From an uncultured Planctomycetota bacterium (GTDB lineage Bacteria; Planctomycetota; Phycisphaerae; UBA1845; UTPLA1), in assembly GCA_900696465.1 (NCBI GenBank), contig CAADGE010000023.1:1-64000 (forward strand): a stretch of 64,000 bases of DNA, in the 5' to 3' direction. The notes below the pieces were generated by a model. The model had not been told where the DNA came from and searched no databases. It saw nothing but the letters and a program-made list of their open reading frames with translations. Made by a program: the position numbers and the translations under genes. Shown piece after piece: positions 24,269-36,426 of this stretch; positions within the stretch are counted from its first letter, which is position 1, and every line of letters begins with the position of its first letter.

Positions 24269-25171
24269 TCATCGTACTTCGGCACTCTCCGGAGCCGCAG
24301 ACGGTCCGCGCGTGGCGATGAAGATGCCGGCGAGAATCATCGCCGCGCCGATCAGTTGAGCCGTTCCGGCGGTCTCGCCCAGCAAGAGGTAGGCAAGGAT
24401 GCCGGCGCCCACCGGCTCTGCCAATATGCAGACGGAAACGAAGGTCGCCGACAGGTGCTTGAGGGCGTAGTTCAGCGAGCCGTGCCCGAGCAACTGCGGA
24501 GCGATCGCCAGCGCAACGAAGCAGGCGTACGTCTGCCAGCGATAGCCGACCGCACCCACACCCGACAAAGAGGCCACCGCGCAGAGAATCACGGCCGCCA
24601 CGCCGTACACGCTCACCATGTATGAGAACACGTCCACCTCAGCGCGAACCTTGCGGCCAATGAGCAGGTAGCCCGAAGCCGTCACCGCGCCACCCAGCGC
24701 CAGCAGATTGCCGTAGAGACCGTTTTCACTTCCGACGGAATGATCGGAGATGCTGATCAATACTCCGCCCGATGCGGCGAGACAGATTCCCACGATCAGC
24801 GCCGCGTAGATTCGCTCCCGCAGGAGCAGCCAGGAGCCAATGCCCACGAAGATCGGGTTGGTCGTCACGATGACCACGGAACTGAGCACCGACGTATGTC
24901 GCAGCGAGGTCATCCAGAAGAAGAAGTGCGCCGCCAGAAACAGGCCGCCGAAAAGGACGTAGCCGGTCAGCTTCGGCGGAATACGCAGCAACCGAACTCC
25001 GCGAGTAGCCGCCAGACCTGGAATAAGCACGATCGTGGCGATGCCCAGTCGGGCCGCGGCGATGACGACCGGCGGGGCGTCGTCGCACCATCGCACCAGA
25101 ATCGCCGACGAAGAGATCGAGAGCATCCCCACGGCCAACAAAAGCGGAAGCAACATCCGATGGCGATTCAT
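24269..25171 (-). CDS. EamA-family (DMT superfamily) transporter
   Basis: A 300-residue protein with ten predicted membrane helices in two EamA repeats. The first has ISSSAILVRWCDDAPPVVIA and ends SSVVIVTTNPIFVGIGSWLL; the second has ATFVSVCILAEPVGAGILAY and a terminal helix. Members export metabolites or amino acids; the substrate cannot be inferred. It is convergent with the SGNH gene, whose stop is 35 bases away. Confidence 0.9.
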   Translation of the reverse strand: MNRHRMLLPLLLAVGMLSISSSAILVRWCDDAPPVVIAAARLGIATIVLIPGLAATRGVRLLRIPPKLTGYVLFGGLFLAAHFFFWMTSLRHTSVLSSVVIVTTNPIFVGIGSWLLLRERIYAALIVGICLAASGGVLISISDHSVGSENGLYGNLLALGGAVTASGYLLIGRKVRAEVDVFSYMVSVYGVAAVILCAVASLSGVGAVGYRWQTYACFVALAIAPQLLGHGSLNYALKHLSATFVSVCILAEPVGAGILAYLLLGETAGTAQLIGAAMILAGIFIATRGPSAAPESAEVR

Positions 25172-25662
25172 GACGCTCCATCTCGTGGTCCCGTCGCGGC
25201 ATACTCACTCGCGTGTGGAAACCATGATCAACAACTGGCGCTTCGGCAAGCGTAGTTGAATAGCAGCAAGTCACCGTTCAGTACGACCAGAAACTGCCGT
25301 GTATCCGCATCCGTGGAGCGTGTCCGGCTTCCCACACCGCCTAAAATACTGGGCAATGCTGCCCAATGTTGGGTTATCAGGTCTATATCCCGGCATCGCT
25401 TGCCGAGAAGTCTAAATTACATAACTAAATTATTTACAATTACTTAAAACAATAAAACGGCGCCCATTCGCCCATTGTCTCATCCTTGGCACAGACAGTG
25501 ACATGTACGGGGTGGGGTACTCCGGATTGTGCAGTCCGTCCGCAAGACTTCCTCGTGACAAATATGAGATTTCGCTGCGGACGTGCCGGGGAATTAGCGC
25601 GTACGTCTTCGGCCGCGGGAGCCGAATCACCAACGTCGAATTCGCCCGGCGGGTCCAGCGAT
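25172..25662. other. intergenic, AT-rich block
   Basis: 491 bases without a recognised gene. A notably AT-rich stretch at about 25411-25455, against GC-rich surroundings, may hold promoters for the flanking genes. An in-frame extension of the downstream STAS-like gene runs back to 25486, but its N-terminal residues look random. Confidence 0.4.
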
Positions 25663-26067
25663 ATGACGCAGACCATGACTAGAAAACACGACAAGGCCCA
25701 CGACGCCGCGACCGGCGAGGCGCGGTATCTCCTGGATCGCTGGGAGTTCTCCGTCTCCAGCACGGGCCTGCTCTGGATTCAGCCGACGCGATCCTCTCTC
25801 ACCCCGGAAGAACTTGCGGGCATGTTCTCCCTGCTGGCGCAGGATTGTCAGAACGACATGCCGAGGATGATCAAGCTGGACCTCAGCGGCGTCCGAATCG
25901 TCGGCGAGCAGTGGACGACGATCGAAGCCATGATCATCGACTTCGCCCACCAGATTCGGGCGGAAATCCGACTGGCGCGAAGTACGCGAGGCCCGGCCTC
26001 GTCAGTGATCTTCTCACGACCAGTTGCAACCGGAAACGAGCCCGGCCCCCTGCCACCAGCCGCGTGA
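25663..26067 (+). CDS. hypothetical protein, possibly STAS-like
   Basis: A 134-residue soluble protein from ATG 25663; the upstream start at 25486 gives an unlikely extension. The central part reads as a short alpha/beta fold: strand LLWIQPTRSSL, helix TPEELAGMFSLLAQDCQ, strand MIKLDLSGVRIVG, helix. This resembles an anti-sigma-factor-antagonist (STAS) core, but the usual phosphorylated Ser motif is not clear. It lies 105 bases upstream of guaA. Function uncertain. Confidence 0.5.
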   Translation: MTQTMTRKHDKAHDAATGEARYLLDRWEFSVSSTGLLWIQPTRSSLTPEELAGMFSLLAQDCQNDMPRMIKLDLSGVRIVGEQWTTIEAMIIDFAHQIRAEIRLARSTRGPASSVIFSRPVATGNEPGPLPPAA

Positions 26068-26131
26068 TGTAAGTTCGCTCATTGACCCTTCTCGCAGACC
26101 CATCATACCGATCTCTCTGCCGATCATGACT

Positions 26132-26169
26132 TTGACGAAACGGCGCACCGGTCTTAGATTACACCGGTC
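26132..26169 (+). promoter_or_regulatory. guaA promoter, giving a nearly leaderless mRNA
   Basis: TTGACG (26132-26137) and TAGATT (26155-26160) are 17 bp apart, predicting transcription from about 26166-26168, only five to seven bases before the guaA ATG at 26173. Two direct copies of CACCGGTC (26146-26153 and 26162-26169), each with a palindromic ACCGGT core, bracket the -10 box and could be an operator or, in RNA, a small hairpin. No Shine-Dalgarno sequence precedes the ATG, which agrees with leaderless initiation. Confidence 0.45.
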
Positions 26170-26172
26170 ATC

Positions 26173-27723
26173 ATGAACCCGCCGTCGATCGCCATTCTCG
26201 ATTTCGGCTCGCAATACGTGCAACTGATTGCCCGTCGCGTGCGCGAAAATCAGGTCCACTCGCTCATCTTCGCGCCGAATGTTTCCCCGGAGATTCTGCA
26301 GCGCCATTCGGTAATCGGCATCATTCTCAGCGGCGGCCCGTCCAGCGCGTACAACCACTCCGCTCCGCAGCCGCATCCCGGCCTGCTTAACATGGGCGTA
26401 CCCGTCCTGGGCATCTGTTACGGCATGCAGGCCGTCTGCCAGCAACTTGGCGCCAAGGTTCAGGCAGCCGCCCAGCGCGAATACGGCCGCACGACGCTCG
26501 AGCGCACCGCCGATGATCCCCTCGTGCGGCACCTGCCCGCGCGGACAACCGTCTGGATGTCACATGGCGATGTAGTAACCGGCCTGGGCGAAGATTTCGT
26601 CACCCTCGCCCGTACTCCGCACAGCCCGTTCGCCCTTGTCCGCCATCGCAGCCGCCCGCTGTACGGCATTCAGTTTCATCCTGAAGTGACGCACACGCCG
26701 GAAGGTGCCCAGATCCTTCGAAACTTTCTTTTCGACATCTGCAACGCCCGGCCGACGTGGAATGCCGGCAACATCCTTGACCAGGCCGTCGAGCAGATCC
26801 GCGAGCGACTCCGCGGCGAGGCGCACGTGATCTGCGGCCTTTCCGGCGGTGTCGATTCCTCCGTGACCGCCGCCCTGCTGCATCGCGCCGCGCCGGACAA
26901 ACTTACCTGCATCTTCGTGGACAACGGCCTGCTCCGTCTCCACGAGCGCGCCCGCGTCGAGGCCATCTTCCGCGGCCACTTCCGGATGGACCTGCACGTG
27001 GTCGACGCGTCAAAGCGCTTTCTGGAGCGCCTTCGGGGCGTCATCGATCCGCAGGAAAAACGCATCCGAATCGGCCACGAATTCATTGACGTCTTCCGCG
27101 AAGAAGCCGCTCGCATTCCGAATGCCCGCTTCCTCGCACAGGGTACCCTCTATCCCGACGTGATCGAATCTGGCCACAGTGCCGCAGGCACCGCCGCGAA
27201 CATCAAGCTGCATCACAATGTCGGCGGTCTTCCGGCCGAACTGGGCTTCGAGCTGATCGAGCCGCTGCGCGATCTGTTCAAGGATGAAGTCCGCATGATC
27301 GGCGAGCTGCTCGGTCTGCCGGAGGAGATCGTCTGGCGACATCCCTTCCCGGGGCCGGGCCTTGCCGTGCGCATTCTCGGCGAAGTCACGCCCGAGCGTC
27401 TCGAACTGCTCCGCCCCGCCGATCAGATCATCATCGAAGAACTGACCGCCGCCGGCTGGTATCGCAAGGTAGCCCAGGCCTTCGGCGTACTCATGCCCGT
27501 CTCCAGCGTCGGTGTCATGGGCGACGGCCGGGCCTACCAGGGTCAACATGTGATCGCAGTCCGCTTCGTCGAATCCACGGACTTCATGACCGCTGACTGG
27601 GTGCACATCGATCCCAACGTGCTGTCGCGCATCAGCAGCCGTATCACGAATGAGGTGGCCGGAATAAACCGGGTCGTGTACGACGTCACGAGCAAGCCGC
27701 CGGCCACCATCGAGTGGGAATAA
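26173..27723 (+). CDS. guaA: GMP synthase (glutamine-hydrolysing)
   Basis: A 516-residue enzyme converting XMP, glutamine and ATP to GMP. The N-terminal class I glutamine amidotransferase has [11 protein letters not shown] (nucleophile Cys) and the catalytic His/Glu in [11 protein letters not shown]. The ATP-pyrophosphatase domain has the P-loop [15 protein letters not shown], and the dimerisation domain ends in the usual [11 protein letters not shown]. Length and domain order are those of bacterial GuaA. Start [20 protein letters not shown] is the family N-terminus. Confidence 0.97.
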
Positions 27724-28045
27724 CCCCTATGTTCGGCACCCAAATGGCCATTTGCCAAGTATCCGCGACAATCTTACAATCCATATCGTGAATCTTTGGA
27801 CCGGCAGGGCTTCGACAGATCATGGCGAATCTCGTCCTCTCGACGTGCCTGTCAGAACATCAGCGTAATACGCATGAGGATGTCAGGCGTTGCCGGACCA
27901 TGCGAGCGGGACTACGCTTGAGTAGGATTCAACGAATCGGGTGGAGCGCCGGGCCATGGCTGCACACGAGGGCGGCGATCGGTAACGCACTTCTTGAGTC
28001 GGCCCACCTGTTCGTGAAGCGAACCGAGCCGCTGGACGCGCGATC
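27724..28045. other. intergenic, no gene seen
   Basis: 322 bases between guaA and the Rrf2 gene. A 75-codon frame ending by ATGA overlap with the Rrf2 start has no protein-like features. Promoter elements for the regulator are presumably here. Confidence 0.4.
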
Positions 28046-28477
28046 ATGATTTACTCCGTCGGATGCGAGTATGCGATCCGCACGCTGATCAAGCTGGCCA
28101 GGAGCAATTCTGCCGGTGGCTTCGTTCTCCTGCGAAACCTCATTGATTCGGAAAACATGCCAGAGCACTTTGTCGGCAAGCTCATGCAGACGCTGGTGCA
28201 TGCGGACATTCTGGTCTCCGCCAAAGGTCGCGGCGGCGGCTTCGCTCTGTCCCGCCCGGCCGGACAGATCACCCTTCGCCAGATCGTCAGCGCGATCGAC
28301 GGCGACGAGCGAATCGATCGCTGCATTCTCGGTTTTGCTTCCTGCGATGAACTGCAACCCTGCCCGCAACACGACGAATGGGCCCCGATCCGCAGGCAGA
28401 TCGGCGAGTTGCTCGATCACACCACGCTGCAAGACCTGATCAAAGCACTCGAGAAGAAGTACCACCCGTCGATGTGA
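28046..28477 (+). CDS. Rrf2-family transcriptional regulator
   Basis: A 143-residue regulator with the Rrf2 winged helix: N-terminal MIYSVGCEYAIRTLIKLA, recognition region VHADILVSAKGRGGGFALSR, then a long C-terminal helix. Three cysteines in the segment CILGFASCDELQPC (residues 92-105) match the Fe-S cluster-binding loop of IscR/NsrR/RsrR-type members. It therefore probably senses iron-sulfur status, nitric oxide or redox. No obvious target operon is adjacent; the convergent neighbour is the photolyase gene. Confidence 0.9.
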   Translation: MIYSVGCEYAIRTLIKLARSNSAGGFVLLRNLIDSENMPEHFVGKLMQTLVHADILVSAKGRGGGFALSRPAGQITLRQIVSAIDGDERIDRCILGFASCDELQPCPQHDEWAPIRRQIGELLDHTTLQDLIKALEKKYHPSM

Positions 28478-28537
28478 GTGACCTGAACAGGTCGTGCAGA
28501 CGCCCTGATGATCACGATCGGCAACTCGGCGTACGCA

Positions 28538-30019
28538 TCACCCGCGACCTGCGAAGCTCGTACCGGGCTTGCGCGGGGACTTTGCTGCAGCGACATCTCC
28601 GCCTTGTTGCTTGACTGCTTTGAACATCTCCAGTGCTGCGGCACGTGCCTGTGCATGATCAACGATCGGCGCGGGATAATCCTTGCCGATGATGCAGCCG
28701 TAGCCGTTCTGTTCGAGGGCGGTTGCCTCCTGGGGCGCGTGGATCAACGGTGCAGGGTAGCGTGCAAGCTCCGGGACGAAGCGGCGGATGAATTCACCGT
28801 CTGCGTCAAACTTCCGGGACTGCAACATGGGATTGAAGATGCGGAAATACGGCTGTGCATCAGTGCCGATGCTCGCCGCCCACTGCCAGCCGCCGAGGTT
28901 CTGCGAGAGATCGTAGTCGAGCAGCTTCGATGCGAAGTAACGCTCGCCCCGCTTCCAGTCGATTCGCAGGTGTTTCGTGAGAAACGAAGCGGCAATCATC
29001 CGCAGCCGATTGTGCATGTATCCGGTCGTGTTGAGCTGGCGCATCGCGGCATCAACGATCGGGTAGCCGGTGCGGCCCTCGCACCACGCGGCGAATTGCT
29101 TTCGATCATGCCGCCACACGAGCGCGTCATAGGCGGATTGAAACGCCCGCGTCTCGGTGTGCGGCCAGTGGTGCAGAACCATGTTGTAGAACTCTCGCCA
29201 GATCAGCTCGTCGACCCACTTCTGCGCCCCGGTCGAGCCCTGGGCCAGCGCCTCTCGTAACAACTCGCGAATGCTGATGGTCCCGAAGCGCAGATGCACC
29301 GAGAGCCGCGACGTGCCCTCGATGCCGGGGTAGTCGCGATCGCGACCGTAATCGTCGATCCGGGAAAGAAACTCGTGAAACATCGCACGTGCAGCGCGGC
29401 GGCCGCCGGGCCATCGCAGGTCGGTCGCTTCAAAGCCCAGCTCAGAAAGCGTCCACGGATGCGACTGAACACCGGCAGGCGGCGGAGCGAGCTTCGCGGC
29501 CTTCGAGGGCGCATCACGCGCTTCAAGATCGGCATCGGTGAGCTTCTGGCGCCACGCGTTGCGATAGGGTGTATAGACGCGAAAGGGTTCGCCGGATCGA
29601 CTGACGACTTCGTCCTTCTCGAAGACGACATGATCCTTGAATGTCCGAAGTGCGCGACCGTCGGCGTCGAGCGCCGCGGCCACTGCGCGATCCCGGGCGA
29701 TGCACCTGGGCTCCTCATCGTGACTTGCATAGACGGCGTCGGCCTTCAACTCGGCCGCCAGCCGCGGAAGTTCTTCCCGTGCGCGGCCATGCCGGATGAT
29801 CAACCCGGCGCGACGCCGACGCAGCGCCGCGTCCACCTCCGTCACGGATTGATGGATGAACTCGACACGGCGATCGGCCCGATCCGCCAGCGCATCGAGG
29901 ATATCGCGGTCAAAGCAGAAGGCAGCATAGACGCGGTCGGCGGCGTTCAAGGCCTGGGTGAGTGCGGTGTGATCATCCAGCCGAAGATCGCGACGAAACC
30001 ACACGAGAACGGTTTTCAT
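28538..30019 (-). CDS. phrB: deoxyribodipyrimidine photolyase (class I CPD type)
   Basis: A 493-residue FAD enzyme that reverses UV-induced pyrimidine dimers with blue light. The N-terminal antenna domain begins [20 protein letters not shown]. The C-terminal FAD domain shows [33 protein letters not shown], the [20 protein letters not shown] block, and the signature [20 protein letters not shown]. The Trp electron chain residues are present in these blocks. A 20-residue Lys/Pro tail follows. It lies 16 bases downstream of a CarH-like regulator gene, the arrangement of light-induced photolyase operons. Confidence 0.96.
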
Positions 30020-30035
30020 GACACGGCCCAGATCT

Positions 30036-30938
30036 TCAGGTGGCTACGGCAGGGCTTGGCTTCGTCTGGACTGATCGGGAATCAAGTGTCCGGGCAAAGG
30101 CGACGAGATGCCCGAGGGTGTCGCAGTAGGCCGAGTAGCGGATTCGCTGACGGACAGGTTCGGTCAGCGCGCGACCGCCGACGACGAGCGCGGTGCCGAC
30201 CTGAGCGGCAGTCTCATAGAGCTGACGACCATCCTCCACGAAGCGTTCGAGTGAATCGATCGTCGAAACGCTCAGCCAGAAGAGCCGCGGCCGCTGGTCA
30301 CGAATGGCCGCGCAAAGCGTCGACGCCGGATTTCCGGTGCCATAGGACTCGGCGCTCCAGCCGATTTCCCGCAGGGTCAGCGCCACCATGGCCGTGGCCA
30401 GCGTGTATGGATCGTATTCCAGTGTCGCACCGATGGCACAGGGTGCGTCCGGCGGCGGAGGCGTGACAGCCGCCCGAAGCTGCCCGAGGACACGGTGGAC
30501 GATCTCGCACGCCCGGCGCTCCCGGTACACCTCGATCTTCCCGTTCTCCCAGTTGTGACCGATCCGTCGAAAGTCCTCGGCGAAGGCCTTGTCGCAGATG
30601 TCGCCGATCGAATACCCGGCCAGGTAAAGCCCCATCACCAGCCGTTCGACCTGCTCTTCGTCTCCCTGCTCCAGCGCCGCCTGCATCAGCTCACGTACCC
30701 GCTCGATCGTCGCGTCGCCGTGGCCAGTCGTGGTAGGCAATCCAAGGACCTCAGGCCGAACGATCTGGTGGCCTGACTGTCGGAGAAACTCAAACACGCC
30801 GCTGATTGGTAGTCGCCGATGCCCGCCTGCAGTGCGCGATGCCCGAAGAAGTCCCTTGTCGCACCATCGCTTGAGTGAGGCCTCACTGACGCCGATGGCG
30901 AGAGCGACCTGTTTGGGGGTGACTATGTGCTTAATCAT
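30036..30938 (-). CDS. MerR-family regulator with CarH-like cobalamin-binding-type domain lacking His ligands
   Basis: A 300-residue regulator: MerR winged helix (residues 5-55, [20 protein letters not shown]), a four-helix bundle (about 75-155) and a Rossmann-type B12-binding-like domain (about 165-285). It aligns without gaps to the Thermus CarH landmarks as I recall them: W130-x9-E140 is kept, but H132, H142 and H177 of CarH correspond to E131, R141 and D176. The cobalt ligands used in light sensing are thus absent. It precedes the photolyase in the same operon and probably controls it and itself. The photochemical route must differ or be lost. Confidence 0.88.
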
Positions 30939-30977
30939 GAGTGAGCGATTCCTTAAACTTAATGAGCGTTTTGAATG

Positions 30978-31006
30978 ATTCTATTGACCAAGCTGGCAGA
31001 ATGCAA
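30978..31006 (-). promoter_or_regulatory. promoter of the MerR-photolyase operon
   Basis: On the minus strand TTGCAT (31006-31001) and TAGAAT (30983-30978) are separated by exactly 17 bp, about 40 bases upstream of the regulator start. The surrounding 30939-31150 stretch is AT-rich. A pair of GAGCG-containing half-sites between the promoter and the start could be regulator binding sites, but this is weak. Confidence 0.5.
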
Positions 31007-31196
31007 CGTATTGAGTATAACTTATTTATCGGCAATGTCTTATGTAAGATTGTCACTGGGATAGAGCATTTCCTATCGAGCGGAGAATTGAATCGCTGGT
31101 GAAGAAAAGCTATAACCACACATACAATCCTCTGAACGTTATGAACGAATTGTACTAGCGTCTTCTCGCAATCGAGGTACAGAATTGAGACGCCGA

Positions 31197-32690
31197 ATGA
31201 TCTTGATCTCCCGGAGATTCTTAATCGCCATGACCACGCTTCCCATGCTTCTGATTGCTGTGTCCGGCTGCATGTGGCTGCCGCCGGCAGCCGTCACCCG
31301 AGCAGACCTCGGCACATCATTGCAGCGATTTGAGCAGGCCTACCGGAAGCACCCGCCCACAGGAGATAAGGTCGCTGAAGTCAATCGCGCCTTTGATCAG
31401 GCAACGCTGGCGTTCTTCCTTGGGAATTTCGGGGAAGTCATCAAGGGCATCGAGGCCGCGGCGGACATGCTCCGCGCTTCTGCAACGACGGATGCCCAGC
31501 GCGTCGCCGCATCGCTCAAGCTGCGTCTCACACCTTCTGCGGGAATGGCCGGAAGTGCCACGCCGCCCACTCTGCGACTGACCAGCATGTATGAGGTCGT
31601 GCTCTCCGAAGATCAGGAAATCGAATTGCGCCTGCGCGTCCGCGATCAGGCGGGCTTGATCGTCCATGAACAGCCGCTGCGCGTCATGGGTTCTGCATCG
31701 ACACGGATTGATCTCACGGCCAACCTGGAATTAGACCCTGCGAAGCTGACAGCGCAGGACTATCGACTGGAATTGATCGCGGATGGTGAATCCTTCTTCC
31801 TCCTGCGCTGGCCGGTGACTACTGAATCGCTCACCCGCCTGCGCGCGGCAAATACAACCCGACTGGAAAAGCTGACCGCGTCAACACCGGCCCTTGAGCA
31901 GGCCCTGGCATCGACCCGGGCCAGAAACGCCCTGCTGCTTGATCCGCCGGGCGAGGATCGAGTCATCGAGTTCATCACCGAGCGCAGCGCGTTGGCAACT
32001 TCCGTAGCTAACGAAGTGGAGCGTTTGGAGGCAGAGGAGAACCCGTTCCTGTTGCGTAAGGGCAACTATTGGCGCGTCTTCAAGCGCGCGGGAGACGAGG
32101 TGCCGCTGCGCATTTACTGTCCGGAATCGCTTGATCTGAGCAAGCCGGTCCCACTCGTTGTTGCTTTTCACGGCTATGGCGGCGATGAGAATCTGTTTCC
32201 TGATGGGTACGGTGCAGGCACCATCCTGAAGCTGGCCGAACAGCAGGGTTTTCTGCTCGTCTGCCCGCTGACCTACCCTTTCATGAACAGCCCGGCGGTC
32301 TTCGATCGACTGCTCGAAGTGATCGGCTACGACTATCCGATCGATCTGGCCCGGGTGTATCTCATGGGGCATTCGCTTGGCGCGGCATGTGCGGCCAGCA
32401 TTGCGCCGCGCCGTGCGGATCGCATCGCCGGGATGTGTCTCTTCGCCGGTGGCGGCAATCTGCCCGATGCCGACACACTTCCGCCGACGATTGTCTTCCT
32501 CGGGGGGCTTGATCTGGTCTCACCGCCATCGCGATCTCGACCGGCTGTTCAGCGTGCGATCGAGAAAGGACTGCCGGTCACTCTTCGCGAGAAACCGGAC
32601 CTGGGCCACACGATCCTGGTCGGTGAATCCCTCGGCGAAGGAACCGCCTTTCTCATGGAGCGGCGTCTCGATTCAGCGCGTCGGAAATAG
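31197..32690 (+). CDS. alpha/beta-hydrolase (esterase) lipoprotein
   Basis: A 497-residue exported lipoprotein: signal MILISRRFLIAMTTLPMLLI ending at AVSGC. An N-terminal about 270-residue helical/beta region is unassigned. The C-terminal alpha/beta-hydrolase (PVPLVVAFHGYGGDENLFPD) has nucleophile Ser in GHSLGAACAA and the terminal His in DLGHTILVG, as in polyhydroxybutyrate depolymerase/feruloyl-esterase-like enzymes. TTG 31185 with a GAGG upstream is an alternative start four codons earlier. Substrate unknown; probably acts at the cell envelope. Confidence 0.85.
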   Translation: MILISRRFLIAMTTLPMLLIAVSGCMWLPPAAVTRADLGTSLQRFEQAYRKHPPTGDKVAEVNRAFDQATLAFFLGNFGEVIKGIEAAADMLRASATTDAQRVAASLKLRLTPSAGMAGSATPPTLRLTSMYEVVLSEDQEIELRLRVRDQAGLIVHEQPLRVMGSASTRIDLTANLELDPAKLTAQDYRLELIADGESFFLLRWPVTTESLTRLRAANTTRLEKLTASTPALEQALASTRARNALLLDPPGEDRVIEFITERSALATSVANEVERLEAEENPFLLRKGNYWRVFKRAGDEVPLRIYCPESLDLSKPVPLVVAFHGYGGDENLFPDGYGAGTILKLAEQQGFLLVCPLTYPFMNSPAVFDRLLEVIGYDYPIDLARVYLMGHSLGAACAASIAPRRADRIAGMCLFAGGGNLPDADTLPPTIVFLGGLDLVSPPSRSRPAVQRAIEKGLPVTLREKPDLGHTILVGESLGEGTAFLMERRLDSARRK

Positions 32691-32957
32691 CGGTGTAGAT
32701 CGATCGCCATGTACCGGTCAATCGGTAACGAATGATCCGGCTGTGACGAACGCATCCGCCCGATAAGGCCCCGGACCGCTGACGCCGACGGCGAGATCAT
32801 CCTTCGGCGCTTCATTCTTTCTGCACTTCCGCCCGATGCTAAGGATGCCCGGAGCGGCCGGGTCATGCCGGGCAGGTGGGAAGCAGGCGTGCAAATCTTC
32901 GTGGGGCATCGGATTCCGCACTGCCTGGTGCAAGAGTCGACGTATCGGAGGTGGGAC

Positions 32958-33290
32958 ATGTCGCAGGTGCAGATGAATCGTGATCTGGATCAGCGAGGTC
33001 AATCGCTTGAGGCGACGTCCGGACGAATTTGCTGGCGGCGTGAGATGCGGGATGGGGTGTATCGCGGCTGGTTGAACGAAACCGGCGCCGACGGTTTGTC
33101 ATTCATTGTTGGTGCCAGCGTGCAGCCCGAAGTGGGGCAGATCATTCGCGTTGACCAGCAAGCGACCGGAGAGGGGCGATTCCGCATCCTGCAAACGACG
33201 GCCTACGACGAACACCTTGTGCTGGTGGTGGCAGAGCGGGTGGGCCGGGAGGTTGCAATCGTCAACGCCGGCAGGCCGATCGTGCATTGA
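32958..33290 (+). CDS. small PilZ-like protein
   Basis: A 110-residue protein from ATG 32958, preceded by GGAGGTGGG. The middle resembles a PilZ barrel: GRICWRREMRDGVYRGWLNE and ADGLSFIVGASVQPEVGQII. The c-di-GMP-binding RxxxR and D/NxSxxG motifs are imperfect. The last 192 bases overlap the 3' end of the convergent zincin gene on the other strand. A role in c-di-GMP signalling is only suggested. Confidence 0.6.
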   Translation: MSQVQMNRDLDQRGQSLEATSGRICWRREMRDGVYRGWLNETGADGLSFIVGASVQPEVGQIIRVDQQATGEGRFRILQTTAYDEHLVLVVAERVGREVAIVNAGRPIVH

Positions 33291-36128
33291 GTGCGGGCCG
33301 CGTCCGTAACGCCCGACGCGCGTCTGCCCGTCCAGCCAGTTGAGCAGCATTTCCACGAAGCTACGGCTATCCAGCGCGTTGTGGTGACCATCGTTGTTCA
33401 AATCGCCGATGCAGTCTTCGGGCGGAGCCGACAGGAGCGCCTGTACGAAAGACGGGATGTCGGCCGTCGTCACAAGGCCGTCGCCATTGAAATCCCCCGA
33501 CTGACACTGGGACGGCGTGAACTCGTGCGCACCGCGATCCACGATCGGCGGCGAGCCGGCACCGGTGTCGACGATGGCGGGGATGTCCACGCGACGCGGC
33601 AGTCCGCCATAGTCCGAGACCAGTCCGATCGGCAGTGCCGCATTGTTGCCGGCGTCGATGGCCGGTGAGCCGGGGCGCAGACGCACATCGTCATCCTTCG
33701 TGCCGAGTAAGCCGTCGCGGCCGTCAGGGTCAAGTAGTCGCGGATCGAGCCCATTATTGCCAACACCGCCCAGCGATCCGGTCCATCCCTGAAGGATTGT
33801 GTGGTTGATGTAGGTCTGTCCGGCGAAGTTCCAGACCTGCTGTCCCTGGATATCACCGAAGTCGGCGACATTCTCCCAAAGGATGCAATTGACCACGCTC
33901 GGGCCGTCGGAATCGTTGGCGATGGCGCCGCCGACTGCCCCACCGTCGTTGCCGACCATCGTGCAGTTGACGATCGTGGGACTGCTGCCTGCGAAGGTGG
34001 TCATGGCGCCGCCGTAGTTGGCGACGGCGACGTTGCCGGTAAAGACGCATCCGGCGATGAGCGGATCGCTGGCGATGATGTCGAACGCGCCGCCGTGGAA
34101 GTCGGCGATGTTCCCATGGAAGCCGCAGTTGAAGTAGGCGGCATCGCTGCTGGGGCCGTTCTCGATGGCACCGCCGTAGGCGCTCTGATTGCTCACGAAG
34201 CTACAGCGCGAGAACACGGGGGCGCTGTCGTAGGTGGTGACCGCGCCGCCAACGTATCCGGACAGGTTCAAGCTGAAGGTGGAATCGCTGATCTGCGGGG
34301 CGCTGCCATCGAAGCAGGCCAGTGCGCCGCCGCCGGGGAAGTAGTCTGGATCTGCGATGTTGCCGGTGAACGTGCAGGACGAGATAACCGGATCGGCGGC
34401 CTCGCAGTAGATCGCGCCTCCGCTTTGTCCGGCGAGGTTGTTTTCGAAGTGGCAGTTCTCGATGGTTGGACCGGCCGCGAGGACGCGCATCGCGCCGCCG
34501 CGGATAAAGAAGAAGACGGACTCCACATCGGCATTGCCGCCCTGAACGATGAATCCATCCAGCACGGCCGTGGCGTCGACATCCTCAGCGACCACGACGT
34601 GCATGGTGTTGTCCGACGAATCACCAGACAGACCGATGTCGCCCGTGAGAATCGTCGGGTGTGCGACGGGGTCGCGCTGGGATCGCAAGGTTTCGTTGCC
34701 GGCAAAACCGCCATAGAGCGCGACGCCATTCTGCAGGCGAAAAGAAAGCTGCCTCAGCGCGGTGCCCAGGTCCGGTGTGTAGGTTCCCTGGGCCACCCAG
34801 ATTTCCTGCACGTCGCCGCGGGAGCGCGCGGCCTGGCAGAGGGCGTCGTGCAGATCGTTGAATGCGGAGGCCCATGTCGTTCCATTGCCTCCGGGAGCTG
34901 CCGCCGCATTGACACGAAGCACCGCTGGGGCACCGATGACCGGCGACACGCGGTAATTGGCCACGATGTGTCGGGTCTGGTTGATCGTGAGCGCGTTGTT
35001 TGCGAAGGCGCTACCGGTGGGACGACCGGTGTAGTTCACATTCGGGTTGGAAAAATGCGGGATCGTCGGATTGGGCTGGAAGACGGCCATGATGGTATGC
35101 CACTGATTGAGCGGATCGACGTAGCCGTAGGAATAAGGGAAGTAGGCGTCGTTGAACGAGTTAGGCAGGTCGTGGGCGCAGCCGAGGTTGTGGCCGATCT
35201 CGTGAGCCATGGTGTACAGATCCCAGTTGTCCCAGCGCATCTCGTGAAAACCACTCGCGCCGGACGGATTCGTCGGCGCGAAGACGCGGCCGCCGACCTC
35301 CAGGTTGTTGACCCAGAGGCCGACCAGGTCGGCGCTGTATTGTTCCCGAAGGGTATGCGCGGGGGCCAGGGCACCAGCACCGGCAAGGAGCAGCGGACCG
35401 TCGATCGAACTGTCGCCGGTCTCAACGTAGGCAACTTCCGCGGTGTGTACGAGGAAGATGCTGGTGTTGATCTGGCTATTGGCGAAGGCGAGGTTGGTAT
35501 CGGCCACGGCGAGGTTGATCAGGGTCTGAATGGCGGAGGTGCCACCTGCGGCGATACGGGCCTGGGTCGTGTAGACGATCAGCAGGTCGATGATGGTGCC
35601 GTCGTCGCAGCCGACCGGGACGGGTACGCCGCGCGGGGAGATCGTCGAGGAGCCCGAATCTGCTGCCGATTTCAGTGGTATCGGGTGAAGCTGACGCTCG
35701 ATAAGTTTCTGTTCGACGGTGGACACGCCGCAGTGGTGTGTGCGATCTCGAACAAGTTCGATCACACGATGACGATTCTGCTCGAAAGGGAGAATTTGAA
35801 TCTCCCGCTCGACATCCAATTGGATCGAGCCCGCCAGGAGAGCTTCGCGGCGGTAAAGTTTGAAGCGAAGGGCGGAATCGGAGTTAACCCGGCCGGTCAC
35901 GATGTGTGTATCGATTGTTGATAGAGCGACATTTTCAATCAGAAGCTGGATGTCGACGTTCTGAAAGAATACGGGACGAAGCACCCTGCCGGGCTCAAAG
36001 GACGCGGCAATGAGCGGGTCTGCATGGAAATCAGCGGACCGGATGACCTTCCGTGTTGGTTGCTCGGCAGCGAAGGCGTGGGCTGCGGCGGCGACTGACA
36101 AAGCAACGCCGATGATGTGAAGCCCCAT
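33099..36128 (-). CDS. secreted zincin metalloprotease with beta-helix repeats and dockerin
   Basis: A 1,009-residue protein. A signal peptide (MGLHIIGVALSVAAAAHAFA) sets the start at 36128. A reprolysin-like zinc protease domain carries MAHEIGHNLGCAHD near residues 306-319. After it comes a right-handed beta-helix/Pmp-type repeat region (motifs such as GGAIYCEAADPVISSCTFTG, GGAMTTF and GGAIAN), then a type I dockerin with two EF-hand-like loops, GDFNGDGLVTTAD and GDLNNDGHHNALD. The last 64 residues after LNWLDG are Pro/His-rich, unlike a dockerin end, and lie antisense to the PilZ-like gene; a lost stop codon may explain them. Likely a cell-surface or exported protease. Confidence 0.88.
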   Translation of the reverse strand: MGLHIIGVALSVAAAAHAFAAEQPTRKVIRSADFHADPLIAASFEPGRVLRPVFFQNVDIQLLIENVALSTIDTHIVTGRVNSDSALRFKLYRREALLAGSIQLDVEREIQILPFEQNRHRVIELVRDRTHHCGVSTVEQKLIERQLHPIPLKSAADSGSSTISPRGVPVPVGCDDGTIIDLLIVYTTQARIAAGGTSAIQTLINLAVADTNLAFANSQINTSIFLVHTAEVAYVETGDSSIDGPLLLAGAGALAPAHTLREQYSADLVGLWVNNLEVGGRVFAPTNPSGASGFHEMRWDNWDLYTMAHEIGHNLGCAHDLPNSFNDAYFPYSYGYVDPLNQWHTIMAVFQPNPTIPHFSNPNVNYTGRPTGSAFANNALTINQTRHIVANYRVSPVIGAPAVLRVNAAAAPGGNGTTWASAFNDLHDALCQAARSRGDVQEIWVAQGTYTPDLGTALRQLSFRLQNGVALYGGFAGNETLRSQRDPVAHPTILTGDIGLSGDSSDNTMHVVVAEDVDATAVLDGFIVQGGNADVESVFFFIRGGAMRVLAAGPTIENCHFENNLAGQSGGAIYCEAADPVISSCTFTGNIADPDYFPGGGALACFDGSAPQISDSTFSLNLSGYVGGAVTTYDSAPVFSRCSFVSNQSAYGGAIENGPSSDAAYFNCGFHGNIADFHGGAFDIIASDPLIAGCVFTGNVAVANYGGAMTTFAGSSPTIVNCTMVGNDGGAVGGAIANDSDGPSVVNCILWENVADFGDIQGQQVWNFAGQTYINHTILQGWTGSLGGVGNNGLDPRLLDPDGRDGLLGTKDDDVRLRPGSPAIDAGNNAALPIGLVSDYGGLPRRVDIPAIVDTGAGSPPIVDRGAHEFTPSQCQSGDFNGDGLVTTADIPSFVQALLSAPPEDCIGDLNNDGHHNALDSRSFVEMLLNWLDGQTRVGRYGRGPHSMHDRPAGVDDCNLPAHPLCHHQHKVFVVGRRLQDAESPLSGRLLVNANDLPHFGLHAGTNNE

Positions 36129-36426
36129 GCGGAATGGACGATGGCATCGAACGACTGCTGAAACAGAAAAGTCGCGCAGACCTCGTGTCAGGTGGCAAGT
36201 CAAGGGAATGGTCCTCCGGCTGTGCCAAGCGGGAGTCGGCACGGGCGCCATGATACCGGTAATGGCGGGTCGGATTCAATCGCAGGGTGAGGTGAGCAGG
36301 AAATGGGCGCGGCGACGTGTTGGGTGCATTGAAAAAGGCGGGTGGGACGCCCGTACCACCCTGATGCGATGGCTGCGACAACGGCAATGGCGGCGACCTC
36401 GGTGGGCTTCTCCGGCGACTTCATCT

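Follow-up and report, generated by a model that had tools for sequence, protein, structure and literature searches.

A family of regulators in the phylum Planctomycetota joins a tightly conserved cobalamin-type pocket, in which the metal-ligand position is altered, with a defined predicted operator and with recurrent light-stress genes. The member analyzed here is encoded in a 64,000-nucleotide stretch of contig CAADGE010000023.1 from an uncultured planctomycete (the window; its genome is G000), directly ahead of a DNA photolyase gene. It is a member of a family spread through the phylum and no lone oddity. Computation shows the residue replacements and how well they are conserved, a predicted fold, an operator family with its placement, and the neighbouring genes; repression, binding of this protein to DNA, a light-linked input and a ligand are inferred. 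The reading we favour on balance is that of a B12-fold regulator of a planctomycete light-stress system, which no longer uses His-ligated adenosylcobalamin (AdoCbl) and controls its own operon, phrB included.

The regulator gene and its parts are arranged as follows:

30036-30938, minus strand: regulator gene, 300 amino acids, with BldC/MerR-type helix-turn-helix (HTH), four-helix bundle and Rossmann (B12-fold) domain (open reading frame, Pfam, AF2 model)
30777-30926, minus strand: DNA-binding domain, residues 5-54 (HTH_17 and MerR profiles; HTH_BldC, NF033787)
30477-30692, minus strand: four-helix domain (B12-binding_2), residues 83-154, holding W130 and E140-R141 (PF02607, E 5e-9)
30162-30437, minus strand: Rossmann domain (B12-binding), residues 168-259 (PF02310 at 28.5 bits, under the cut-off of 32.1; fold)
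30516-30521, minus strand: codons of E140-R141, at the position of CarH E141-H142, His replaced by Arg (alignment)
30405-30413, minus strand: codons of D176-P177-Y178, cobalt-ligand His replaced by Tyr (alignment)

The CarH-like succession of MerR, helical and Rossmann domains, which the original prediction had read from the sequence, is recovered by Pfam profiles and by fold. The HTH matches HTH_BldC (NF033787) with E 7e-9, yet its 35.3 bits fall short of the cut-off (77), and it matches the BldC structure (PDB 6ama) with E 0.0023. The AF2 model has a mean pLDDT of 94.3. Its top fold match in the PDB is the B12 photoreceptor CtMerR (8jbt, Z 26.6), and photocobilins (Z 24.7), AppA SCHIC (4heh, 20.3) and TtCarH (5c8d, 20.0) are further matches, the Foldseek and VIA lists leaving room for other families. 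The window genome also encodes a paralogue (G000:C35), 34% identical to the window copy and adjoining a divergent run of folE, fasciclin, DUF378 and lipocalin genes.

The residues of CarH that are key to AdoCbl binding are W131, E141, H142 and H177, and those named for the pocket of CtMerR are W156, E166, H167 and H204 (both according to the account in PMC11796333); it is with the latter four that the pocket columns of the window protein pair. The W-x9-E motif expected from the letters is present as W130-x9-E140, and besides Trp130 and Glu140 the protein retains G127, G200xxxP204, S223xS225, GG and D176. Three CarH histidines (132, 142 and 177) had been predicted to be Glu, Arg and Asp here. 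The first two replacements hold, as Glu131 and Arg141, whereas the third came from an error of register, since Tyr178 stands in that place. Both phmmer and profile alignments lay D176-P-Y178 on the D-x-H of CtMerR (8JBS) and methionine synthase with no gap, the residue numbers of CtMerR agree, and the ligand column is Tyr in 90 of the 92 clade-A proteins described below. The D-x-Y register leaves 41 residues between position 181 and S223, as in the B12 motif D/ExHx2G/Px41SxT/V as published in PMC9304148, and the Asp register leaves 43. The assignment of Asp to His177 is thus ruled out, while the broader statement that the protein lacks the cobalt-ligand His stands; the EH pair is gone as well. 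The position of H132 is itself an unsafe marker of B12 photoreceptors, because working ones differ there, CtMerR having Arg and two photocobilins Gln and Tyr in the description of PMC11796333.

Conservation of the pocket was measured in 85 clade-A proteins below 90% identity, over 13 pocket columns drawn from published motifs. The mean frequency of the commonest residue is 0.94 in these columns and 0.57 elsewhere in the domain (permutation p 1e-5, and 2e-5 for the six columns alone that are not Gly, Pro or Trp); the permutation was run after the list of conserved columns was known, though the column set follows published motifs, and since clade A is defined by Arg141, conservation of column 141 arises there by construction. 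The pocket of the window protein is under strong selection. The high conservation of its remaining residues argues for a pocket that was rebuilt and did not decay, and favours a ligand of some kind. Most likely, the pocket with Tyr178 and Arg141 keeps a ligand or switch other than base-off/His-on AdoCbl. We hold with high confidence that the regulator works without His-on AdoCbl photochemistry; that its pocket binds some ligand is a reasonable expectation, held less firmly.

Two other uses of the pocket have to be weighed here. The protein could still be a cobalamin photoreceptor, binding AdoCbl base-off with Tyr178 or no lower protein ligand, so that photolysis would switch its oligomeric state and DNA binding. 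Retention of the Trp, Glu, Gly, Pro, Ser and Asp residues listed above would suit this, as would the binding of AdoCbl by CtMerR, the closest solved relative, and the His found at the ligand site of 3 of 34 relatives across the phylum. Moreover, a PduO-type adenosyltransferase is encoded in 59 of the 61 genomes of the order, that of the window included, so AdoCbl is probably available to the cell. We nevertheless consider such a photoreceptor unlikely, as 90 of 92 clade-A proteins have Arg and Tyr at the two key His positions of CarH and Tyr as a cobalamin ligand has, to our knowledge, no precedent in any cobalamin protein. Similarly improbable in our estimation is a new class of tetrapyrrole sensor, in which the fold would have been rebuilt in a planctomycete ancestor, and Tyr178 and Asp176 (with Arg141 in the clade of the window protein) would hold the pigment through an oxygen ligand. 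The pigment would be base-off cobalamin, or haem/protoporphyrin, the cell's own blue-light sensitiser; if this were true, lit or accumulated pigment would free photorepair and porphyrin-clearing genes.

Some match to the regulator is given by 38 of the 61 genomes of the order. By alignment, clade-A proteins (E-R at the position of the CarH EH pair) occur in 21 of the 61 and clade-B proteins (E-H) in 9, which makes 28 genomes together. A scan of named genomes through one HTH pattern yielded 361 confirmed relatives, and the best 80 of these 361 by likeness to the query were kept; they are planctomycetes by titles and tree labels, cultured species such as Lacipirellula limnantheis I41 (L070) and Bythopirellula polymerisocia Pla144 (L088) being among the family's hosts. 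After removal of 10 duplicates from 114 aligned rows, 104 distinct proteins remain, with E-R in 92 and E-H in 12, and since the 80 loci were ranked by likeness to the query, the clade-A counts lean towards it. Position 178 is Tyr in 98 of the 104, His in 4, and Ser and Asp in 1 each; all but one of the His rows belong to the outgroup-like L030, L031 and L145. A plasmid search returned 10 records, and one of them, from Rhizobium sp. TH2 (26%), spans the greater part of the query and has EH and E-R-H. On plasmid pTH2c of Rhizobium sp. TH2, an unannotated MerR/B12-domain frame (L145:6001-6720) adjoins a fasciclin gene.

A second sample was an even draw of 199 Planctomycetota genomes, 34 of which match at E 1e-30. 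From 27 of these matching genomes 34 proteins were taken, the genome of the query and six others with 45-50% identity being omitted, and the sample therefore leans to distant relatives. Many of the 34 are only 30-40% identical to the window protein, and L251/L255/L256 and L248/L260/L253 are near-copies. Tyr occupies the ligand site in 28 and His in 3; counted by both positions, 20 proteins are EH/Tyr, 8 ER/Tyr, 3 EH/His and 3 others.

E-R proteins form a single clade, with support of 99 and 96 in two trees built without the trait columns; both are quick trees with SH-aLRT support only, redundant rows being left out of the first and L145, L030, L234b and L250 out of the second. In the second tree, the His-bearing planctomycete proteins are scattered tips among E-H/Tyr ones. 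From the trees, Tyr178 most likely arose before clades A and B split and Arg141 later, in one clade, and the scattered His may be reversals. The outgroup CtMerR sits on a long branch with placement support of 47, so the root and the order of the His changes are not firm. His at the cobalt-ligand position amid Tyr-bearing neighbours was seen in L027 (C7 of G006), L244, L250 and L258, and these relatives are natural controls for questions about the cofactor. Genome G212 (L234) encodes a tandem second regulator with a decayed pocket, having D-R, Asp at the ligand site and GxxW lost.

The surroundings of the regulator gene in the window comprise:

28538-30019, minus strand: DNA photolyase, 493 amino acids, 16 bases downstream of the regulator (PF03441, E 5e-90; PF00875, E 2e-41)
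30963-30982, minus strand: operator 2, AGAATCATTCAAAACGCTCA, 24 bp ahead of the regulator start codon (22.3 bits)
31133-31152, minus strand: operator 1, CAATTCGTTCATAACGTTCA, two 9-bp direct repeats with exact CGTTCA-N3-CGTTCA (32.2 bits)
31185-32690, plus strand: divergent gene beside operator 1, predicted lipoprotein with weak alpha/beta-hydrolase match (open reading frame, Pfam)

The lipoprotein call for the divergent gene is presumptive, from its start as read by eye; 246 bp separate this gene from the regulator. An Rrf2-type regulator gene (28046-28477, plus strand) lies on the other side of the photolyase, and 33099-36251 (minus strand) encodes a long protein that looks secreted and has a metalloprotease-like motif, HEIGHNLGC.

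The candidate operator emerged from 100 regions upstream of family members, where a gapped-word search picked up direct repeats in as many as 42 of the regions, against at most 9 in five shuffles. CGTTCA-N3-CGTTCA occurs exactly in 30 of the regions, in 53 with at most one mismatch and in 75 with at most two, against 0, 0.35 and 4.2 in shuffle controls. Its repeat units are AATTCGTTCA-AATCGTTCA, and the full motif, built from 51 sites, is AAATTCGTTCAAATCGTTCA, two 9-bp repeats. A matrix was trained on 49 sites, those of the window and of the paralogue being excluded, and sites of at least 18 bits were called strong. Operators 1 and 2 give the two top scores of the entire 64-kb window (maximum of 20 shuffled windows, 15.1), and a third, weaker repeat abuts operator 1 and reaches 31156. 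The 102 loci compared (1.12 Mb) hold 132 strong sites, against 1 in shuffled sequence, and 128 of the 132 lie no more than 420 bp ahead of a regulator gene. A strong site is present upstream of the regulator in 70 loci and absent in 32. The training sites come from the same 102 loci, and two-fold cross-validation was therefore added: it found a site in 38/51 and 33/51 held-out loci, with 1 and 3 sites outside. Among the 34 phylum-wide relatives, never trained on, 17 have a strong site, in two cases on the other strand. Orientation is shared by 124 of 125 sites in the 102 loci, and positions near -200, -145 and -15 are frequent.

The candidate operator fits the pattern of BldC, whose subunits, according to PMC5859096, line up head to tail on direct repeats of 9 bp, AATTXXXX(C). 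CarH operator repeats are 11 bp long (TnnACA), and the class II LitR operator is TGTACA-N12-TGTACA; by its letters, our candidate appears to resemble BldC repeats and not the 11-bp repeats of CarH. It is very likely that the regulator acts on its own operon through the 9-bp repeats, and the divergent gene is a possible second target. Across the window genome, one-mismatch matches number 49, against 17 in a reversed control. Scores were obtained for 36 of the 49, and the best among them outside the two regulator loci are 21.7 bits (L163, upstream of a gene that we take to be beta-propeller-like from inspection by eye), 17.6 (L188) and 16.5 (L174); no clear regulon was seen in these 36. An Rfam scan of positions 25000-36000 gave no match, and a promoter scan of the sequence did no better than chance.

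The open reading frames confirm that the regulator gene is followed on the same strand by the photolyase gene, with a 16-base gap (30020-30035), as had been noted. Control of photorepair, which had been read from this gene order, is supported in part: the operon-like order, two upstream operator matches and light-stress neighbours in relatives speak for it, but no more than 4 of 102 loci have phrB as the next gene after the regulator in the same orientation. Neighbourhoods were taken as 6.5 kb on either side in the 102 loci, 46 of which have a flank shorter than 5.9 kb. Families were named by Pfam/NCBIfam on one representative each, and phrB-type genes were recognized by their similarity to the window photolyase; for folE, fasciclin, SDR, DUF378 and DCC genes the names are our own reading of the sequences by eye. 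The commonest neighbours encode a sigma-70 factor (25 loci), flavin amine oxidase (25), CFA synthase (23; furan fatty-acid synthase is akin to it) and fasciclin (22), followed by DUF1365 (17), SDR (16), ferrochelatase (14), phrB-type photolyase (13), DUF1295 (12), folE (10), DPRP photolyase (7), class II photolyase (7) and a SOUL haem-binding gene (6). At least one of the 15 recurrent families is found near the regulator in 81 of 102 loci, and a photolyase of any type in 25. Relatives often have a sigma factor, folE, fasciclin or an amine-oxidase/CFA operon as the divergent partner. It is likely, in our judgement, that the regulator serves light or photo-oxidative stress.

Could the photolyase be adjacent by coincidence, the protein being an ordinary regulator with no part in light responses? 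A photolyase adjoins the gene in few loci, and of 18 photolyase loci unlinked to the regulator (more than 6.5 kb away or on another contig; linked L216 left out) in regulator-bearing genomes, 17 have no operator in the promoter, the exception having two sites (G019, L202). In regulator-free genomes, no operator was found ahead of photolyase in 12 loci; one locus in each of these two sets has no photolyase by tblastn. Chance was computed for phrB-type genes alone among the 15 families: the 1.12 Mb surveyed around the regulators contains 13, where photolyase density in the order (61 genomes) predicts 0.17, many of the 102 loci being from other orders. That excess, together with the recurrence of folE, of CFA/amine oxidase/DUF1365 and of two other photolyase types, makes coincidence very improbable. 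A photolyase domain over the cut-off is also found in 25 of the 28 genomes with the regulator family and in 11 of 33 without (p 8e-6, an optimistic value because the genomes are related).

The signal might be photo-oxidative stress and not light, singlet oxygen or the porphyrin/haem pool being read through the pocket or by upstream factors. In 13 of 102 loci a ferrochelatase gene immediately follows the regulator in the same orientation, SOUL genes are neighbours in 6 and a sigma factor in 25, and the fold matches AppA SCHIC (Z 20.3). Precedents of photo-oxidative circuits are that of the B12-independent CarA as presented in PMC9304148 and that of the MerR-phr pair of V. cholerae (PMC5241685), which would presumably be B12-independent too. 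However, the ferrochelatase loci placed in the first tree all fall into one sub-group, none near the window gene, and to this explanation we give a modest chance. The 13 loci are L107, L109, L119, L122, L124, L126, L127, L129, L135, L136, L139, L141 and L142; 9 of them have no strong operator site. A haem/porphyrin link is possible from these neighbours. Upstream of L135 and L136, where the standard operator is absent, a variant repeat, AATTCGGTC-AAAACA[GA]TC, was observed on the other strand; it may be an altered operator of the ferrochelatase sub-group.

Light could also be sensed by a partner that pulls the regulator off DNA, a BLUF protein in some lineages or the photolyase itself. Precedents are class II LitR with its short LOV protein, phrB and folE being light-induced in the account of PMC9758184, and the removal of BluR by BluF described in PMC3509220. 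Photoreceptor surveys covered the genomes of the order. BLUF is encoded in 10 of the 61 genomes and in 7 of the 28 with the regulator; of the 9 clade-B genomes 5 have it (p 0.004), and of the 21 clade-A genomes 3 (p 1), the window genome being among the 18 that do not. In genome G032, the gene of the clade-A regulator converges with a short BLUF gene (L049:7112-7570, plus strand), whose product is a possible partner in that lineage. Phytochrome was found in 1 of the 61 genomes (G034, which has a clade-A regulator) and not in the window genome. The canonical LOV motif GXNCRFLQ, searched as an exact degenerate pattern that a divergent LOV domain or an assembly gap would escape, is absent from the window genome and was not seen at any of its 11 PAS places; it occurs in 2 of 61 genomes, both of which lack the regulator, hence in 0 of 28 regulator genomes. 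A LOV partner was therefore rejected as a general answer. We doubt the partner explanation as a whole, which would also leave the conserved pocket unexplained.

In the reading that we prefer, a BldC-like HTH would bind head to tail on the 9-bp direct repeats AATTCGTTCA AATCGTTCA upstream of its own gene. In this way the regulator would govern the operon to which it belongs, here together with phrB, the divergent gene being a probable further target. In unstressed cells it most likely acts as a repressor, and light-linked stress would release repression, as with CarH, CarA and class II LitR. The pocket would retain a ligand or switch other than base-off/His-on AdoCbl.

B12-independent relatives in light circuits are in print, namely CarA (PMC9304148) and class II LitR (PMC9758184), as far as these accounts go, and the Vibrio MerR-phr pair (PMC5241685) may be a third. 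New here are a pocket with conserved Tyr and Arg and an operator of 9-bp repeats. Among the open-licence papers listed by planctomycete-targeted searches, no title or abstract concerned this regulator family or such a light-response system. The family points to a planctomycete light-response system and offers a direct test of cofactor change in a light-sensing fold; how the window regulator senses light, if at all, is a testable question, and the predicted operator is ready for reporter use.

Among known regulators, CtMerR of Chloracidobacterium thermophilum (8JBS/8JBT) has the same domain build and is the nearest match of the window protein in sequence and fold. The two are alike in the HTH stretch vSESSVKRW, and from the signature of light response both have GxxW, Glu and GxxxP, but CtMerR, reported in PMC11796333 to bind AdoCbl, keeps EH and the ligand His204 where the window protein has ER and Tyr178. 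With CarH/class I LitR (Thermus, Bacillus, Myxococcus), the window system has in common the domain order, the fold and, as predicted, direct-repeat operators and photoprotective target genes. Assignment to CarH, suggested by the original prediction, was nevertheless rejected: the recognition helix RxWERRY is replaced by SLKRWCDKG, Wx9EH and the ligand His are gone, the candidate repeats found are 9-bp CGTTCA, those of CarH being 11-bp TnnACA, and the NCBI CarH model NF052513 gives 38.4 bits against a cut-off of 400. Of the signature of light-responsive cobalamin domains (SignatureFinder), the protein has GxxW and GxxxP, with EH and GxxH missing. AppA SCHIC (4heh) is alike by fold (Z 20.3); it has a B12-like fold that takes part in light control although B12 does not play its usual part there, and is no DNA-binding regulator. 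Kinship to BluR/MlrA beyond the HTH was discarded, as E. coli BluR and MlrA have PF22270/PF22267 and the window protein neither at E 0.01.

BldC of Streptomyces resembles the window system in 9-bp direct repeats as described in PMC5859096 and may do so in HTH type (NF033787, under the cut-off), but has no sensory domain. CarA of Myxococcus xanthus offers a parallel, since it is paralogous to a B12 photoreceptor and acts independently of B12 in a photo-oxidative circuit; as described in PMC9304148 it has the B12-binding motif and EH but no Trp, whereas the window protein has Trp and neither the ligand His nor the EH His. In V. cholerae, the MerR-like VCA0056 and phr (VCA0057) form one predicted operon, a likeness by description, and VCA0056 with ChrR is reported as needed for the blue-light response (PMC5241685). 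Class IV LitR, mainly of Vibrio, is described as having no B12 domain (PMC9758184); VCA0056 would presumably belong to that class. Class II LitR (PplR1-3, PmlR2) is B12-independent and, as in the window genome, comes as two paralogues with phrB and folE regions (PMC9758184). Filing under this class was rejected: its C-terminus is described there as having no recognisable B12 Rossmann domain, and the window protein has one by profile (under the cut-off) and fold. The signal to PmlR2 comes, in that account, from a short LOV protein, whereas the window genome has no LOV motif by the exact pattern. The light-inducible genes of Pseudomonas given in PMC9758184 include phrB, folE and furan fatty-acid synthase, and this gene set with its split between paralogues is a close parallel to the planctomycete neighbourhoods.
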